Of a stretch of DNA of 52,501 nt, positions 15,181 through 21,861 are shown one piece after another. Location of the stretch: assembly GCA_013140805.1 (NCBI GenBank), contig JABFRW010000008.1, forward strand, positions 1 through 52,501, written 5' to 3'. The notes below the pieces were generated by a model. The model searched no databases. It had not been told where the DNA came from and worked only from the letters and a program-made list of their open reading frames with translations. The position numbers and the translations under genes are program-made. Source of the stretch: Candidatus Eisenbacteria bacterium. Lineage in GTDB: Bacteria > Eisenbacteria > RBG-16-71-46. How positions within the stretch are numbered: the first letter of the stretch is position 1; each line of letters starts with the position of its first letter.

Positions 15181-15489
15181 CTACGCGCCGCGACTCTCGT
15201 GCCGGGCGCAGGCAAGCAGGTCGGCGACTCCGAGCTCTGCCGCCCAGTGATCGAGATAGGTTTCGGCCGCCTCGGCAATCGCATGACGCGAGACATAGAA
15301 TTCCGACTCGAGCGCCTGCGCGAGAGCCTCCAGTTGTTCGGACGAGGCGTCAATCACGAAGTCCACATCAGCCGAAGCGCGAAAAGTGCCGTGTGCAGAA
15401 CTCGCGACCGAACCGCCAACGTGATAGGCGATTCCGAGTCGCTCCAAGGTCTGGGCGATCTCGACGACGAATTCCATCGGGTTCGTCAC
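15181..15489 (-). CDS. Nucleotidyltransferase-like protein, internally shortened
   Basis: 102 residues from GTG 15489, whose GTGA overlaps the stop of the preceding small gene. It has the nucleotidyltransferase core: GIAYHVGGSVASSAHG (GG/S motif) and ASADVDFVID (the DxD metal pair). Related proteins are about 170 residues; here YVSRHAIAEAAE runs straight into YLDHWAAELGVADLLA, the usual C terminus, so a block of roughly 60-70 residues appears missing in frame. The active-site residues are kept. It is the last gene of the winged-helix/nucleotidyltransferase operon. It may be a degenerate or minimal MNT-like enzyme. Confidence 0.65.
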   Translation of the reverse strand: MTNPMEFVVEIAQTLERLGIAYHVGGSVASSAHGTFRASADVDFVIDASSEQLEALAQALESEFYVSRHAIAEAAETYLDHWAAELGVADLLACARHESRGA

Positions 15490-15743
15490 GCGGCGCCTCG
15501 ACCACTTCGGCCGCGCTTGTGAGCGAGGACTCTCGCCGCGAGCTCCGTGCCGTGCATGAGTTCGCAAAAGAGATCGTCGAGCTCGGACTCGGTGGCAGAC
15601 GGATTGCGTCGCTTCAGGCCTTCGCGGGCCATTCCACGAACCAGCATCGTGAGGTCGTTCATCGCAGCAAGCTCTTGCGCAACCGACATGCGCCGCAGCG
15701 CCGCGTACTGAACACGACGCGCGGCTGAAGAGGTGTCGTCCAT
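15486..15743 (-). CDS. Small conserved hypothetical protein of nucleotidyltransferase operon
   Basis: 85 residues, helical and charged: ALRRMSVAQELAAMNDLTML, then REGLKRRNPSATESELDDLF and ELMHGTELAARVLAHKRGR. Similar short proteins are commonly encoded just before nucleotidyltransferase genes of this type, where they are proposed as partner or regulatory subunits. No catalytic motif is visible. ATG 15743 overlaps a palindromic operator-like site (15747-15760) that lies within its ribosome-binding region. The stop overlaps the next start as GTGA. The function is unknown. Confidence 0.6.
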   Translation of the reverse strand: MDDTSSAARRVQYAALRRMSVAQELAAMNDLTMLVRGMAREGLKRRNPSATESELDDLFCELMHGTELAARVLAHKRGRSGRGAA

Positions 15744-15746
15744 GGC

Positions 15747-15760
15747 TGGTCATGTGACCA
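15747..15760. promoter_or_regulatory. Operator-like palindrome TGGTCA-TG-TGACCA
   Basis: Perfect inverted repeat with 6-base arms and a 2-base spacer, four bases upstream of the 85-residue gene and overlapping the end of the truncated nucleotidyltransferase gene. It has the same arms as the longer palindrome at 16332-16349 in front of the winged-helix gene, so one DNA-binding protein, most simply the operon's own regulator, could bind both. Confidence 0.5.
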
Positions 15761-15995
15761 CCATGCGTGGGCAGCGGTCAATGCCCTCCCGCGGAATGGC
15801 CATTGCCCGATCGAGATCCGACTGTGTGCACTGCTCCGTCAACACGAAGTCGGCATCCAGCGAATGGTGCGCGCCACCCGAGTACAAGCTGGCACACGCG
15901 CCCCCGGTCAGCACCGCGCGGATCCCGGCGCGACGAAGTGCGTCACCGACCGCCACGGCCACGTTGGCCAGTGACTCGTCGGGCTTGAGCTTCAT
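15750..15995 (-). CDS. Nucleotidyltransferase fragment (truncated)
   Basis: 81 residues. The N terminus matches nucleotidyltransferases of the AbiEii/MNT kind: GIRAVLTGGACASLYSGG is the GG-containing motif and HSLDADFVL gives the D-x-D metal pair. Related proteins continue for another 100 or more residues; here the sequence degrades after LDRAMAIPREGIDR and stops, so the protein is only the first half of the fold. ATG 15995 overlaps the stop of the winged-helix gene (ATGA). It may be inactive, or may act with the second small nucleotidyltransferase; a decayed gene is the simpler reading. Confidence 0.6.
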   Translation of the reverse strand: MKLKPDESLANVAVAVGDALRRAGIRAVLTGGACASLYSGGAHHSLDADFVLTEQCTQSDLDRAMAIPREGIDRCPRMVVT

Positions 15996-16330
15996 GCCGG
16001 TTTGCCGGCCTTTCTGGGTCGCCGTCGGAGCGTCGCGGCCTTCGCACGCAACTTCGTCTCGGTCACGAGCAGACCATCGAGATAGCGCTCGAGGTCTTTG
16101 CGAGCTCCCGCTCTGGGGCCGAGGCGGTAGACCCGTGTTCGGCCGACTGCACGTGCGGCGACAAGTCCGTCGGCCTCCAGGGAACGCAGTGCCTTTTGGA
16201 CGCCCGAGAGATTGAGGTCGAGGAAGCGCGCGAGCTCACGTGCGTAGGTCTCGACCAGCAGTCGCATCGCCAGCAGTGCCCGCGTACGTGTGCTACTTCC
16301 GAACGGGCTGGATGTCGCGGTGACCATCAT
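15992..16330 (-). CDS. Winged-helix transcriptional regulator
   Basis: 112 residues with an ArsR/MarR-like winged helix: SPFGSSTRTRALLAMRLL, ARELARFLDLNLSGVQKALR as recognition helix, then the wing LVAARAVGRTRVYRLGP, and a basic tail LRRRPRKAGKP. No metal-binding cysteines are seen. The gene opens the nucleotidyltransferase operon and starts at ATG 16330 or 16327, directly beside an 18-bp perfect palindrome. Regulator plus nucleotidyltransferase resembles AbiE-type toxin-antitoxin organisation (AbiEi antitoxins have winged helices), but no AbiEi C-terminal domain is present, so the comparison is loose. Autoregulation is likely from operator position. Confidence 0.7.
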   Translation of the reverse strand: MMVTATSSPFGSSTRTRALLAMRLLVETYARELARFLDLNLSGVQKALRSLEADGLVAARAVGRTRVYRLGPRAGARKDLERYLDGLLVTETKLRAKAATLRRRPRKAGKPA

Positions 16331-16331
16331 G

Positions 16332-16349
16332 GGTGGTCATCTGACCACC
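16332..16349. promoter_or_regulatory. 18-bp operator-like palindrome GGTGGTCA-TC-TGACCACC
   Basis: Perfect inverted repeat with 8-base arms, two bases upstream of the winged-helix start codon. Further half-sites flank it: TGACCATC just inside the gene and GGTGGTC at 16354-16360. The clustering and the second copy at 15747-15760 support a genuine regulator binding site, probably for autorepression of this operon. Confidence 0.6.
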
Positions 16350-16378
16350 GATGGTGGTCGACCTTCAAATGCGGCGCT

Positions 16379-17500
16379 CTACCGCCCCATCCGCCGCAGG
16401 TACTCCAGATCCCATGCCGCCGGGATGCTCTCGCGCGACGAGTACGGCCCCGGCGCGTAGCGCCGTGAGCCGATCCCAAGCTGGCTCTGCTCCACGATGT
16501 CCCAGTCCTGGCGGTTGGTCAGGTCCCAGAACTCGACCCCGTCACGCATGTTGTTGTTCGGGTCGGCGATCGTATCGGGGTGGAAGAGCCACTCGGACTC
16601 GACCACGGTGCGATCCACAGCAACCGCGTGCAGCAGGTAGTAGTTCACGTAGTCGGGGTGCAGGCTCAACAGCATGTTCGGCATCAGCGAGTAGTAGAAC
16701 GCGCGGTGCTGATCGGCTTCGGGCATCGCGTCGCTCACCGACCGCCCGCACACGCGACCGCTCATGGTGGCGCTCTGGTTCGGTGCTTTAATCTCCATGT
16801 AGCCGCCCAGGAACGCGCCCTCGGTCAGGTCGTTCGCACCGCTCTGATAGGGCAGCACGGCCGCGAGCTTGGGGTGGATGGTCGGGCAGTGCAGGCACTC
16901 GGAGTAGTTCTGGAACACCAGCTTCCAGTTGGCGTTCACTTCGTACGTGACCCTGTGACCCACCGCGAGCCCCGTGAGTCCGTAACGCGCGAGCCGCCCC
17001 AGCATCGGAGCCCAGGCTCGCTCGAACGGCTCGGCATCGCCCGCGAGATTCACGAACACGAAGCCTTCCCACTCGGCGAGCGAGGCGCGATGGAGCGGGT
17101 ACTCGGCCTTGTCGAAGCCTTCGGTGTCCTGCATATGCGGCGCGCCGATCAATTGCCCGTCAGTGCCGTAGGTCCACGCGTGATACGGGCACTGGATGCT
17201 CTCGTTGAAGTGGCCCGCGGCGTCACGGCAGATGCGGGTGCCGCGGTGGCGGCACACATTGAAGAACGCATTGAGCCCGCCGCCCTTCTCGCGCACCACG
17301 ATCACCGACTCGCCCGCGAGCTCGACCGTGATGAAGTCGCCGGGCGCGGCGAGTCGCGAGCCGCGGCCGACGCAATTCCAGCCGCGTGCGAAGATCCTCT
17401 CGCGCTCTTCGGCCAGAACGGCGTCCGAGGTGTAGAACTCGCGCGGCAGCGTGCGTGCGCCCTGTCGGAACGATTCGGTGGTGCGCTTGAAGTCTGGCAT
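16379..17500 (-). CDS. Rieske non-heme iron oxygenase, alpha subunit type
   Basis: 373 residues from ATG 17500. The Rieske [2Fe-2S] site is C83-x-H85 (CRHRGTRIC) with C104-x2-H107 (CPYHAWTYG); the mononuclear iron site includes H204 and H209 in ECLHCPTIHP. The layout resembles GbcA/choline-monooxygenase-like oxygenases, which oxidise or demethylate quaternary amines, more than classical arene dioxygenases. It is the last gene of an operon with two phytoene-desaturase-like flavoproteins and a GcvT-like protein, so removal of a methyl group with transfer to folate is plausible. No dedicated reductase is encoded here; electrons would come from elsewhere. The substrate is unknown. Confidence 0.85.
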   Translation of the reverse strand: MPDFKRTTESFRQGARTLPREFYTSDAVLAEERERIFARGWNCVGRGSRLAAPGDFITVELAGESVIVVREKGGGLNAFFNVCRHRGTRICRDAAGHFNESIQCPYHAWTYGTDGQLIGAPHMQDTEGFDKAEYPLHRASLAEWEGFVFVNLAGDAEPFERAWAPMLGRLARYGLTGLAVGHRVTYEVNANWKLVFQNYSECLHCPTIHPKLAAVLPYQSGANDLTEGAFLGGYMEIKAPNQSATMSGRVCGRSVSDAMPEADQHRAFYYSLMPNMLLSLHPDYVNYYLLHAVAVDRTVVESEWLFHPDTIADPNNNMRDGVEFWDLTNRQDWDIVEQSQLGIGSRRYAPGPYSSRESIPAAWDLEYLRRMGR

Positions 17501-17510
17501 CGCGCCCTCG

Positions 17511-19097
17511 CTATCTGCGTCCGGCCTTGAGCACACGTCCCGCCGCCAACCAGCCCGCACCGCCCAGCACGCCAGGCCCCGGATGCGATCCACATCCGCC
17601 CAGCGTGAGTCCGGCGATCGGCGTGGCGTGCCGCCCCCAGCCCGCGACGGGCCGCATGAAGAGAATCTGATCGAGTCCGAGTTCGCCCTGATGCGGGGCA
17701 CCCTCCGTGAGCCCGAAGCGCTGTTCGAGATCGGCCGGCGACCACGCCACCCGGCTCACGATACGCGAACCGAATCCGGGCGCGATGGCTTCGATCGCCG
17801 CGGTGGTGGTGTTCGCGAGCGCGTCGAGCCGCGCCGCATCCCACTTTGCTCCGCCCTTCAGGCGATAGGGCGCGTACTGAACCCGCGCGACCAGCACATG
17901 TTTGCCGCCGGGCGCGAGGTTCGGCCAGCGCACGCTCGGCACCGAGAACTCGACATGCGGCCTCTCGGACACTTCGCCGTACTTGGCAGCGTCCGCCGCC
18001 TTCTCGAGTGCCACCAGCGACGTTGTGAGCGACACCATGCCGCCGAGCGACGCTTCGGCGCCGAGCCCCTTGAATGCCGGCAGCGCGTCGAGCGCGTAGA
18101 GGACGATCGCCGTGCAGCCGCGAAAGCGGATGTTCTGCACGTCGCGCATGAACTCGGGGTCCAGCCACACGGGATCGACCCAGTCGAGCATCGTGCGCCG
18201 GGCCTCCGCGGTCGAAAGCACGGCGCGCGCGGCGATCTCCTCGCCACTCGCGAGCACGACGCCCACCACCGCGTCGTCGCGCACTTGGATCCGCGCGACC
18301 TCTGCAGCGGTGCGAATAGTGACACCCGCGCGCCGGGCCGCGCGCTCGGCGGCATCGGTGAAGGCGCCGGGGCCACCGCGCCATGCGGGACGACCGCGCA
18401 TCGTGCCGGCACTGGCACCCACGAGGTGATGCAGCAGCACGAAGCCCGTGCCGCCCGAACGGGGCCCCTGCTGGTAGTCCTGAATGCCGCCGGTCGCGAC
18501 CGCGGCCTTGAGCGCCGTGGTCTCGAACCAATCGTCAAGCAATTCCCAGACTGACATCGGCAGCGTGCGCAGCAGCTCGATCATGTCGGTCTTGCCGAGT
18601 GCCCGGAATTTCTGGCCGAGCCCGAGCAGCGGCAGCAGCTCACCGAGCGAGCGCGCATCCACGTCGGGAGCGTCCATCACGTAGAGCGCCTCGAGAAACT
18701 CCGTGAGGCTCCGAAGCCGTGCGGCAAATGCCGGCCACTTCGCAGCGTCCGCGATCGAGTGCACGCGGATCGCGTCGGCCGCCGTGCGCACGTCGCTCGC
18801 GAGCGTGAGAAAGGCACCCGGCGCAATCGCCACCGAAAGCGGGGCATCGCCGGTCGCCGGTTCGAGCCCATCGAGGTTGAGAGACAGCGCGATCGACGGC
18901 GGCAACCAGCCGGCATCGAGCCCGAGTGGTGCCGCGTGAAATCCCGGCGCGAACTCGGTGACCGCTCCCTGCCCGCCCGCCGAGTCGGTGCGCTCGAGCA
19001 ACAGCACGCGACGGCCCGCGAGCCCGAGGCGTGCCGCGGCCACGAGGCCATTGGCGCCCGCGCCGATCACGATCGCGTCGTAGCCGGGCTGGCTCAT
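17511..19097 (-). CDS. NAD(P)/FAD-dependent oxidoreductase, phytoene-desaturase-like (copy B)
   Basis: 528 residues from ATG 19097, which overlaps the stop of copy A as ATGA and has a GGCGGGGG stretch upstream. The FAD-binding motif AIVIGAGANGLVAAARLG is at the N terminus with the acidic ribose ligand at VLLLERTDSAGG, and the C-terminal flavin block is LTLGGCGSHPGPGVLGGAGW. It is about 45 percent similar by eye to copy A at 19094, so the pair arose by duplication. Members of this broad family (CrtI/COG1233) desaturate or oxidise varied substrates; carotenoid genes are absent here, so a carotenoid role is unlikely. The product probably works with the Rieske oxygenase, 10 bases downstream. Confidence 0.8.
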   Translation of the reverse strand: MSQPGYDAIVIGAGANGLVAAARLGLAGRRVLLLERTDSAGGQGAVTEFAPGFHAAPLGLDAGWLPPSIALSLNLDGLEPATGDAPLSVAIAPGAFLTLASDVRTAADAIRVHSIADAAKWPAFAARLRSLTEFLEALYVMDAPDVDARSLGELLPLLGLGQKFRALGKTDMIELLRTLPMSVWELLDDWFETTALKAAVATGGIQDYQQGPRSGGTGFVLLHHLVGASAGTMRGRPAWRGGPGAFTDAAERAARRAGVTIRTAAEVARIQVRDDAVVGVVLASGEEIAARAVLSTAEARRTMLDWVDPVWLDPEFMRDVQNIRFRGCTAIVLYALDALPAFKGLGAEASLGGMVSLTTSLVALEKAADAAKYGEVSERPHVEFSVPSVRWPNLAPGGKHVLVARVQYAPYRLKGGAKWDAARLDALANTTTAAIEAIAPGFGSRIVSRVAWSPADLEQRFGLTEGAPHQGELGLDQILFMRPVAGWGRHATPIAGLTLGGCGSHPGPGVLGGAGWLAAGRVLKAGRR

Positions 19098-20677
19098 GCC
19101 CCCGCCTTCAGGATCTGAAGAGCCGCGAGCCGGCCCGATGCGCCCATGATGCCGCCGCCCGGGTGGGTGCCGGCACCGCACTGCCAGTAGCCCTCGATCG
19201 GAGTGCGGTACTTGGCCCACTGCGGAGCGGGGCGCAGAAAGAACAACTGCTGAAGCGCCAGTTCACCCTGGAAGATATTGCCCTCGGTGAGCCCTGTGAT
19301 GCGCTCGATGTCGTCGGGCGTCAGCACCTGACGATGAAGGATCAGCGACTCGAGGTTCGGTGCGTAGCACGCCAGCGTCTTCACCACCGCGTCGCCGAAC
19401 GCTTCGCGCTTCGCCACCGTCCAGCCGCCATTCAGGTTGTAGGGCGCGTACTGCACGAAGATGCTCATCACGTGCTTGCCGGGGGGCGCCATGCCGGGAT
19501 CGATCATCGATGGGATCACCACGTCCATGTACGGGTGTTGCGAGAACTCGCCGTACTTGGCGTCGTCGTAGGCGCGCTCCAGGTATTCGACGCTCGGGCT
19601 GATCGAGATTGCGCCGCGCAGGTGCGGGCCGTTGCCCGGCAGGCACGTGAAGTTCGGTAGCCCCGCGAGTGCCAGGTTCACCTTGCCCGACGAGCCGCGG
19701 AACTTGTAGCGGCGCACGCCCTCGGTCAGGTCGCTCGGCAGGTCCTTCGCCTCGACCAGCTTGGTGAACGTGAGCCGCGGATCGAGCCCCGACACCACCA
19801 GGTCTGCCGCGATCTCATCGCCATTCGCCAGCGCCACGCCGGTGGCGCGTCCCCCACGCACGATCACCCGGTCGACGGCCGCGTCGGTGCGGATCTCGGC
19901 CCCCGCCGCACGCGCGGAACTCGCGATCGACTCACTGATGCCACCGGTTCCGCCCTTCTGAAATCCCCACGCGCGAAACGCGCCGTCGAGCTCGCCCATG
20001 TAGTGGTGAAGCAGCACGTAGGCGGAGCCGGGTGAGCGCGGGCCTAAGAACGTGCCGATGATGCCGCTCGCCGACTTGGTCGCCTTCAGTGCATCGAACT
20101 CGTACCACTCGTCGAGGTAGTCGGCGCTGCTCATGGTCATGAGCTTGTGGAGCGCATGGAAGCGTTCAGCGCCGAGCGAGCGAAAGTGTCCGCCGAGCTT
20201 GAGCAATCCCGCGAGGTCCCCGGGCGACATCGAGGTGGGATTGGGCGGCACCATGGCGAGGATCGGCTTCACCGCCATCGCCATGTGATGCATGAGACGC
20301 CCGAACACCACCGCCGTGTCGGCGTCGCGCGGCGAATGGCGGCACAGCTCGCGACGCGTCTCGTCGGGGTCGGCCCACGAGCCCAGGTAGTCGCCGTTGT
20401 CGAGTGGTGTGATGGTGCTCTCGAGCGGAAGGATTTGCAGCCCGTGCTTCGGCAGCTCGAGATCGCGAATGATCTCGGGCCGCAGCAGACTTACAACGTA
20501 GGAGAACACCGAGAACTTGAAGCCCGGAAAGATCTCTTCGGTGACGGCGGCACCACCGACCATCGGCCGACGCTCGAGCACCAGCGTCTTGCGACCCGCC
20601 CGCGCTAGGTAGGCCGCGGTCACGAGTCCGTTGTGGCCGCCGCCTACGATGATCGCGTCGTAACGGGGCGCGCTCAC
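19094..20677 (-). CDS. NAD(P)/FAD-dependent oxidoreductase, phytoene-desaturase-like (copy A)
   Basis: 527 residues from GTG 20677, whose GTGA overlaps the stop of the GcvT-like gene. FAD motif AIIVGGGHNGLVTAAYLA, then TLVLERRPMVGGAAVTEE; C-terminal flavin-binding block YWQCGAGTHPGGGIMGASG. The central part has GSAYVLLHHYMGELDGAFRA, with a counterpart in copy B. Two paralogous flavoproteins in tandem could form a heterodimer or act on successive intermediates. The frame stays open upstream but only inside the GcvT-like gene, with no family match. Confidence 0.8.
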   Translation of the reverse strand: MSAPRYDAIIVGGGHNGLVTAAYLARAGRKTLVLERRPMVGGAAVTEEIFPGFKFSVFSYVVSLLRPEIIRDLELPKHGLQILPLESTITPLDNGDYLGSWADPDETRRELCRHSPRDADTAVVFGRLMHHMAMAVKPILAMVPPNPTSMSPGDLAGLLKLGGHFRSLGAERFHALHKLMTMSSADYLDEWYEFDALKATKSASGIIGTFLGPRSPGSAYVLLHHYMGELDGAFRAWGFQKGGTGGISESIASSARAAGAEIRTDAAVDRVIVRGGRATGVALANGDEIAADLVVSGLDPRLTFTKLVEAKDLPSDLTEGVRRYKFRGSSGKVNLALAGLPNFTCLPGNGPHLRGAISISPSVEYLERAYDDAKYGEFSQHPYMDVVIPSMIDPGMAPPGKHVMSIFVQYAPYNLNGGWTVAKREAFGDAVVKTLACYAPNLESLILHRQVLTPDDIERITGLTEGNIFQGELALQQLFFLRPAPQWAKYRTPIEGYWQCGAGTHPGGGIMGASGRLAALQILKAGA

Positions 20678-21861
20678 GCTTTCTTCCTCTCGGGATCGAA
20701 GAACGGCAGCCTGCACACCGTGGCGTTCGCGCGTTCGCGATGGTGTTCGACCGTCACTTCCAGCTCGACCTGCGTGCCGACTCCGAAGTGCGGCGCCTCG
20801 AGATGCGCGAGCGCCAGCGACTTCTTGAGCAGCGGCGACCAGCACCCGCTCGTCGCGTAGCCGATCTGCTCGCCGTCGCGGTAGACCGGAGCGCTGGTGC
20901 GCCAGGCGATGTTCGAGAGCTGCGGCGGCAGGCGATGCGCAGCGAACAGGCGCTCGAACGACTCCCACTCGACCTCGAGCCCGACGAAGTTCCACGACGA
21001 GCCATGCGCGCGCTCGGCGGCGAGTGCTCGGCGTCCGTTGAACGGCCCCTTGCTGGCGCTCACCGCCCAGCCCAGGTTGATCTCGTACGGCGAAGACTTG
21101 CGCGCTTCGATGAGCGCGTGATGCGCCGAGTAGTAGTCGACGTCCATCATGATGAGGCCCGCCTCGATGCGCGCGATGTCGAGCGCCCACACCCCCGCCG
21201 GTGTGATGCCATAGGGCGTGCCCGCCTCGATGAGCGCGTCCCACAGCGCTTCGGCACGCGGCGCTTCGGCCCAGATCTCGTAGCCCAGGTCGCCGGTGTA
21301 ACCGGTGCGGGAGATCGTGACCGGAAGGTCGCGCACGGCGGTCGCGACCACGCGGAAGTACTTGAGCTTGGCCAGGTCGGAGGCCGCGATAGTCTGAAGG
21401 ATCGCGCGCGACGACGGCCCCTGCATCGAGACCACGGCCACGCGCTCCGAAACATCCTCGATGTTCACGCTCATCCCGACCGCGTTCAAGTGCAGCCAGC
21501 GAAGCGACGAGTCGGCGCTCGTCAGGCGGTAGGTGTGCTCGTCGAGGCGACTCACCGTGCCGTCATCGACCACCTTGCCGGCGGCGTCGCACCAGGGTGT
21601 GTAGTAGACCTGACCGGGCTTCAACTTGGTCATGTCGCGCGTGATCGTGCGATCGAGCAGCCGTGCGGCGTCGCGCCCGGTGATCACGTACTTGTAGAGC
21701 GGCGAAACGTCGATCAGGGCCGCCGAGTTACGGATCGCCGCGTACTCGCGATCCGGATGCGGATCGTAAGCACTGGCCATCTGATAGCCGGCCCAGCGGC
21801 GCCACGTCTGGGCGCGCACGAGCGGTGCCGTGCGTGAATGGAATGGCGTGGTCTTGAGCAT
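20674..21861 (-). CDS. GcvT-like aminomethyltransferase/demethylase family protein
   Basis: 395 residues from ATG 21861. Glycine-cleavage T-protein fold: DVSPLYKYVITGRDA, VYYTPWCDAAGKVVDDGTV, SMQGPSSRAILQT, the tetrahydrofolate-site stretch SRTGYTGDLGYEIW, and the C-terminal barrel GYATSGCWSPLLKKSLALAH. Relatives include GcvT, DMSP demethylase DmdA and the folate-binding halves of dimethylglycine and sarcosine oxidases, which pass one-carbon units to tetrahydrofolate. No other glycine-cleavage genes (P, H or L protein) are adjacent, so it is not the housekeeping GcvT. It heads the operon with two flavoproteins and a Rieske oxygenase, suggesting it captures the methyl or methylene group released by them. 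Confidence 0.82.
   Translation of the reverse strand: MLKTTPFHSRTAPLVRAQTWRRWAGYQMASAYDPHPDREYAAIRNSAALIDVSPLYKYVITGRDAARLLDRTITRDMTKLKPGQVYYTPWCDAAGKVVDDGTVSRLDEHTYRLTSADSSLRWLHLNAVGMSVNIEDVSERVAVVSMQGPSSRAILQTIAASDLAKLKYFRVVATAVRDLPVTISRTGYTGDLGYEIWAEAPRAEALWDALIEAGTPYGITPAGVWALDIARIEAGLIMMDVDYYSAHHALIEARKSSPYEINLGWAVSASKGPFNGRRALAAERAHGSSWNFVGLEVEWESFERLFAAHRLPPQLSNIAWRTSAPVYRDGEQIGYATSGCWSPLLKKSLALAHLEAPHFGVGTQVELEVTVEHHRERANATVCRLPFFDPERKKA

Follow-up and report, generated by a model that had tools for sequence, protein, structure and literature searches.

The window, the whole 52,501-nucleotide stretch of DNA analysed here, belongs to the 3.8-Mb draft genome (215 contigs, 96% complete) of an uncultured member of the Eisenbacteria. 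Four genes and two related promoter-operators lie close together on its minus strand:

16328..16368, minus strand: promoter-operator P1 and the start codon of the wHTH gene, TTGAAG-N18-TCAGAT-8 nt-ATG, with a palindrome at 16334-16347
16330-15992, minus strand: wHTH regulator gene, 112 aa, intact, encoding a single-domain ArsR/MarR-like winged helix
15995-15750, minus strand: NTase1 stub, 81 aa, with a 4-base overlap with the wHTH gene
15741..15781, minus strand: P2, second copy of the wHTH promoter-operator, TTGACC-N18-TCACAT-8 nt-ATG, with a palindrome at 15747-15760; its ATG is the start codon of the menA1-like gene
15743-15486, minus strand: menA1-like antitoxin gene (the small gene, S85), 85 aa, intact except that its N-terminus starts from the P2 ATG
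15477-15181, minus strand: NTase2 (MenT1-like) stub, 98 aa from the ATG at 15477

All four open reading frames are free of frameshifts and stop codons. The small gene and NTase2 do not overlap but lie 8 bases apart, and a 190-aa ORF from 15753 is merely the NTase2 frame read upstream. An earlier sequence-only reading had described this four-gene set with two palindromes, a half-length NTase1 and an NTase2 with an internal gap. Genes and palindromes were found in the places it gave, and comparison with full-length homologues showed that both the shortening and the gap are real.

Upstream of the locus lies a gene for a Rieske ring-hydroxylating oxygenase (16379-17494), adjoined by two tandem genes for FAD-dependent phytoene-desaturase-like oxidoreductases (17511-21244; named by reading of the translations alone). 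An empty-site comparison that used the Rieske gene as flank found that homology stops at its stop codon and that the downstream genes differ in G003, G006 and G012. A search of the genome contigs with the 85-aa protein gave no match. The comparison class comprised 47 species including that of the window, and several members of the genome's family are Candidatus Eisenbacteria MAGs (GTDB records).

The wHTH-NTase1 module

The window wHTH protein is 48-74% identical to its homologues; its matches to Pfam MarR_2, GntR and TrmB and to NCBIfam HTH_metalloreg (E 6.6e-8) are below the cut-offs. The homologues mostly precede a gene for an NTase1 of 182-198 aa, usually with a 4-bp overlap. Intact pairs occur in Eisenbacteria, Rokubacteria, Acidobacteria, one Acidimicrobiia MAG and on plasmids, with distant pairs on plasmids of Bdellovibrio, Sulfurospirillum and Leptospira (L081, L082 and L083) that are annotated as hypothetical or wHTH proteins. 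We regard the wHTH-NTase1 pair as an unnamed, widespread two-gene module of a mobile and uncharacterised family, and as a putative toxin-antitoxin (TA) pair. The window fits this module in gene order, including the 4-bp overlap, in wHTH length and in its operator, which is present in many bacterial relatives; it differs in the truncated NTase1 and in a second operator copy in front of another gene.

A full-length NTase1 has no above-cut-off hit in Pfam or NCBIfam and matches one PHROG of unknown function; closest to its predicted fold (mean pLDDT 90.5) are nucleotidyltransferases, MenT1 among them. Both proteins of the pair match PHROG profiles (phrog_18520 / phrog_13263-like), but annotated phages gave no NTase1 match and viral contigs neither a wHTH nor an NTase1 match at the sensitivity used, and a phage or viral origin of the module was not retained.

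The NTase1 stub is homologous over residues 1-66, with 71% identity to a 191-aa protein (L016), and continues with 15 unrelated residues. GG31-32 and D47-x-D49 are retained; about 120 C-terminal residues are lost, including E87 and the TDxCRDRL...HWxD motif. The motifs of the module's full-length NTases (GG, DxD, VEF and TDxCRDRL) are thereby incomplete in the window, where homology ends after residue 66. We also considered, and rejected, the idea that the window wHTH had evolved faster once its toxin was lost: a Tajima-type count gave 19 versus 1 unique changes against L016, but in the tree the L016 branch is simply very short (0.032), and that of the window (0.36) is similar to that of L017 (0.32).

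Repeated loss of NTase1

Among the wHTH loci with a readable downstream side, 14 of 18 encode a full-length NTase1 and 4 have an NTase1 destroyed beside an intact wHTH gene. Besides the window, with its 66 remaining residues, there are three independent losses: L018/L052 in G014 (about 60 residues left, frame lost), L020/L046 in G018 (about 18) and L051 (about 14). In L052 the frame of the remnant runs into a downstream open frame; G018 has a wHTH without detectable NTase1. The reverse, an NTase1 without wHTH, was not found in the class of 47 species. This asymmetry matches the prediction for TA decay, because an antitoxin cannot safely go before its toxin. It fits an antitoxin role for the wHTH protein, although it falls short of proof. 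Bacteria commonly carry orphan antitoxins, for which roles as anti-addiction factors or repurposed regulators have been proposed (PMC7192599).

Against their nearest relatives, the retained parts show dN/dS values of 0.10-0.18 where computable, with dS near saturation and consequently low power; pN/pS of S85 against L003 is 0.36. Such dN/dS values would fit recent deletions or pieces that are still in use.

A MenA1-MenT1-type module: the small gene and NTase2

The 85-aa protein is 54-62% identical to three homologues in the two nearest genomes, G009 and G014; two of the three precede a full-length NTase2, and the combination of S85 with an NTase2 of about 190 aa is intact in several Eisenbacteria. 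With the Pfam family Rv0078B the window protein scores 16.3 (E 0.01) against a gathering threshold of 27.1, which the relative L003 passes (28.9). Full-length NTase2 homologues match Pfam AbiEii with 25.8-27.0 bits (cut-off 22.5), whereas the window NTase2 stays below it (17.4 bits) and NTase1 has no match. The PDB sequence nearest to the NTase2 family profile is that of Mycobacterium tuberculosis MenT1 (8an4, E 2.9e-6), and the predicted full-length fold (pLDDT 94.5) is closest to the MenAT1 complex (Foldseek, 8an5, E 6.2e-8, TM 0.68). The 85-aa gene and NTase2 are a module of the MenA1-MenT1 (Rv0078B-Rv0078A) type. The MenT/DUF1814 fold is found in the full-length NTase2 homologues and is partial in the window protein.

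Compared with L003, the NTase2 stub is 80% identical over residues 1-70 and matches again at the C-terminus. Approximately 91 codons between these parts are deleted in frame, with the last 25 or so residues (the C-terminal helix) kept. Toxicity of MenT1 is abolished by the substitutions D41A, K137A or D152A (PMC10435456). By motif and position, rather than by residue-by-residue alignment, the family residues K131 and D148 are probably the equivalents of catalytic K137 and D152. The stub keeps DxD (37/39, L003 numbering), whereas K131, D148 and the third carboxylate D89 fall inside the deletion, which leaves the MenT1-type catalytic set incomplete. Family members have GAGGC(G) near both sides of the deletion junction, an arrangement compatible with a short-repeat deletion as one candidate cause of the gap.

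A related arrangement exists in G014:C395 (L014 1492-1692 and L004 1492-2324), where about 1.5 kb separates two menA1-like genes. The first is truncated and toxinless, and we consider it another orphan antitoxin remnant; behind the second stands a full-length menT1-like gene.

In both stubs the N-terminal lobe with DxD is preserved, and according to the predicted folds both lack the strand of the third carboxylate and most of the C-terminal half. The sequence-only reading had asked whether the two fragments jointly form one active enzyme. Since they keep the same half, miss the same half and come from different modules, they cannot complement each other, and this idea was abandoned.

Promoter-operators P1 and P2

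The paired palindromes proved to be perfect TGGTCA-N2-TGACCA sequences before the first and third genes (16334-16347 and 15747-15760), and occur nowhere else in the 3.8-Mb genome. With one mismatch allowed, 0.08 sites are expected in the window, and none of 100 shuffles gave two; the longer form GGTGGTCANNTGACCA, also with one mismatch allowed, matches the genome at these two places only. In relatives, TTGAC-N~17-GGTCATATGACC-N4-ATG leads up to the wHTH start, and half-sites lie both upstream of it and inside codons 2-4. P1 likewise has an upstream half-site and a downstream one (GGTCA) inside wHTH codons 2-4, and its -35 sequence TTGAAG is one off the family form. This architecture and its distance to the wHTH start are the same in Eisenbacteria, Rokubacteria and other phyla; in 95 genomes of the phylum that contains the Rokubacteria, four exact sites occur, each in front of a wHTH gene. 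Upstream of the plasmid homologues of wHTH-NTase1 no such operator was found. As 8 nt lie between the -10-like hexamer and the ATG, the wHTH mRNA is predicted to be leaderless. Binding of the wHTH protein to either site is likewise a prediction.

The -35-to-ATG distance of P2, 38 nt, equals that of the wHTH promoters, and its central operator is intact; the downstream half-site is absent. The menA1-like ATG sits exactly where the wHTH ATG would be relative to the promoter, and upstream of the relatives' menA1 genes this promoter was not seen. A position weight matrix built without the window sequences gave 35.0 bits for P1, 23.5 for P2 and 6.5 for the best unrelated site of the window; with a second, wider matrix the two promoters reach 46.8 and 27.1 bits, while 4 Mb of random sequence yield at most 10.1. 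P2 is identical to P1 at 30 of 41 positions and to the P1 of another genome (L048) at 31 of 41. Being equally unlike both, it is not a recent tandem copy.

A second case of promoter capture was found in G007 (L071), where a promoter-operator with the downstream half-site (TTGACG...GGTCATATGACCGACGATGAAGGTCATC; 37.2 bits) opens the gene of a 498-aa patatin-like phospholipase. Promoter, operator and ATG are fused in frame to this gene (514-2045), the product has a signal-like N-terminus as in secreted proteins, and the G007 genome gave no wHTH match. The promoter-operator-ATG unit might thus be a recurring scar or cassette that passing wHTH-NTase1 modules leave behind and that rewires the next gene under wHTH-type control, an idea that we put forward tentatively and hold to be doubtful. 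Two captures in one family, the menA1-like gene of the window and the phospholipase, are suggestive, no more.

Comparison with known systems

Similar to MenA1-MenT1, the window has a small antitoxin gene upstream of an NTase, with an Rv0078B match in relatives and an NTase2 whose profile and fold are closest to MenT1. Unlike that system, its toxin lacks the catalytic K and D and the third carboxylate, its antitoxin gene stands behind a wHTH-type operator promoter, and the host is an Eisenbacteria member. AbiE, a type IV TA system, combines a wHTH autoregulator (AbiEi) acting on promoter inverted repeats with an NTase of the DUF1814 class (AbiEii) (PMC7319586). The window shares this general logic. 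However, its single-domain wHTH protein of 112 aa lacks the C-terminal antitoxin domain of AbiEi and has no AbiEi match in Pfam or PADLOC, and NTase1 matches no Pfam family even at full length. The AbiE-like control proposed earlier is therefore right only in a loose sense: no antitoxin of the AbiEi type is present, and the closest solved relative of NTase2 is MenT1. HEPN-MNT systems were also considered, and none of the four window proteins has a HEPN match in Pfam. As in the orphan antitoxins of decayed TA modules, the antitoxin is kept and the toxin lost (PMC7192599); different from these, the window fuses two modules and has the regulator's operator duplicated before the second antitoxin gene.

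Interpretation

We consider it probable that the locus is a composite remnant of a wHTH-NTase1 and a MenA1-MenT1-type module, in which the toxins are gone and the regulator and antitoxin are kept and transcriptionally linked. By comparison with relatives, both presumed toxins lack the third carboxylate and the C-terminal half, whereas the wHTH and MenA1-like genes are complete. A wHTH dimer would bind GGTCA-N2-TGACC over the -10 region and repress its own leaderless promoter P1, and could repress P2 in trans. The simplest history would be that menA1 originally lay behind a second wHTH module, until a deletion fused that module's promoter and ATG to the menA1 core and so gave rise to P2. The toxins would have decayed first, because a cell with an active toxin would suffer from the loss of its antitoxin. 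The remainder is at most a regulator-plus-antitoxin unit, which could act against incoming MenT1-type toxins, and may simply be disappearing. Of the earlier interpretation, the TA character, the wHTH regulator, the operator-linked control and the decay of the enzymes stand, and the joint enzyme does not. It had also named full-length relatives with the same operators as the mark of simple decay; relatives indeed have full-length enzymes, and those of the wHTH gene have the same operator.

Ordinary decay is likely, and an antitoxin-only role is possible. As a selected anti-addiction or immunity unit, the wHTH and MenA1-like proteins would neutralise incoming modules of both types under shared control, with the stubs as passengers or with NTase2 as a decoy still touching MenA1. 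We regard this as rather unlikely, even though antitoxin or regulator is intact and the toxin disarmed in both modules, P2 places the antitoxin under the same operator, and wHTH was kept after NTase1 loss in four loci; the expected decay order of any TA module gives the same picture, and there is no sign of selection since the deletions. The MenT1-MenA1 interface (PMC10435456) is divided, with A3, V4, L8, F28, E35, F38 and R40 in the retained N-lobe but A93, V95, L120 and L123 in the lost part. Some observations also count against decay: with uninterrupted frames and the dN/dS values given above (of low power), long neutral decay is not visible, and an in-frame NTase2 deletion that spares the C-terminal helix is expected also of a protein still in use.

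These same observations, with the retained GG...DxD motif, would suit short nucleotidyltransferases that function as minimal proteins, alone or as a pair rebuilding one active site. Such a role is very improbable, since the halves kept are not complementary, the predicted folds show the loss of the third-carboxylate strands (E85-87 in NTase1, E87-92 in NTase2) and of most of the C-terminal lobe, and no similarly shortened pair was found among the relatives searched. A misjoined MAG contig, with full-length genes in the true genome, could be suspected from the fragmented draft, from two deletions in one locus and from the failure to find an empty or intact site in a close strain. This too is improbable: no full-length copy or lost half was found elsewhere in the 96%-complete assembly, NTase1 was lost independently in other assemblies, and the spacing of the P2 promoter is exact.

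As a composite remnant, the locus mainly shows toxin decay in a neat form, with an unusual regulatory connection. It gives a clear picture of how NTase TA modules decay, repeatedly, with the toxins first and the antitoxin or regulator last, and it draws attention to a wHTH-NTase module that is widespread yet unnamed and whose operator-promoter is highly conserved and apparently leaderless. It also suggests that TA promoters, together with their start codon, may be captured by neighbouring genes.
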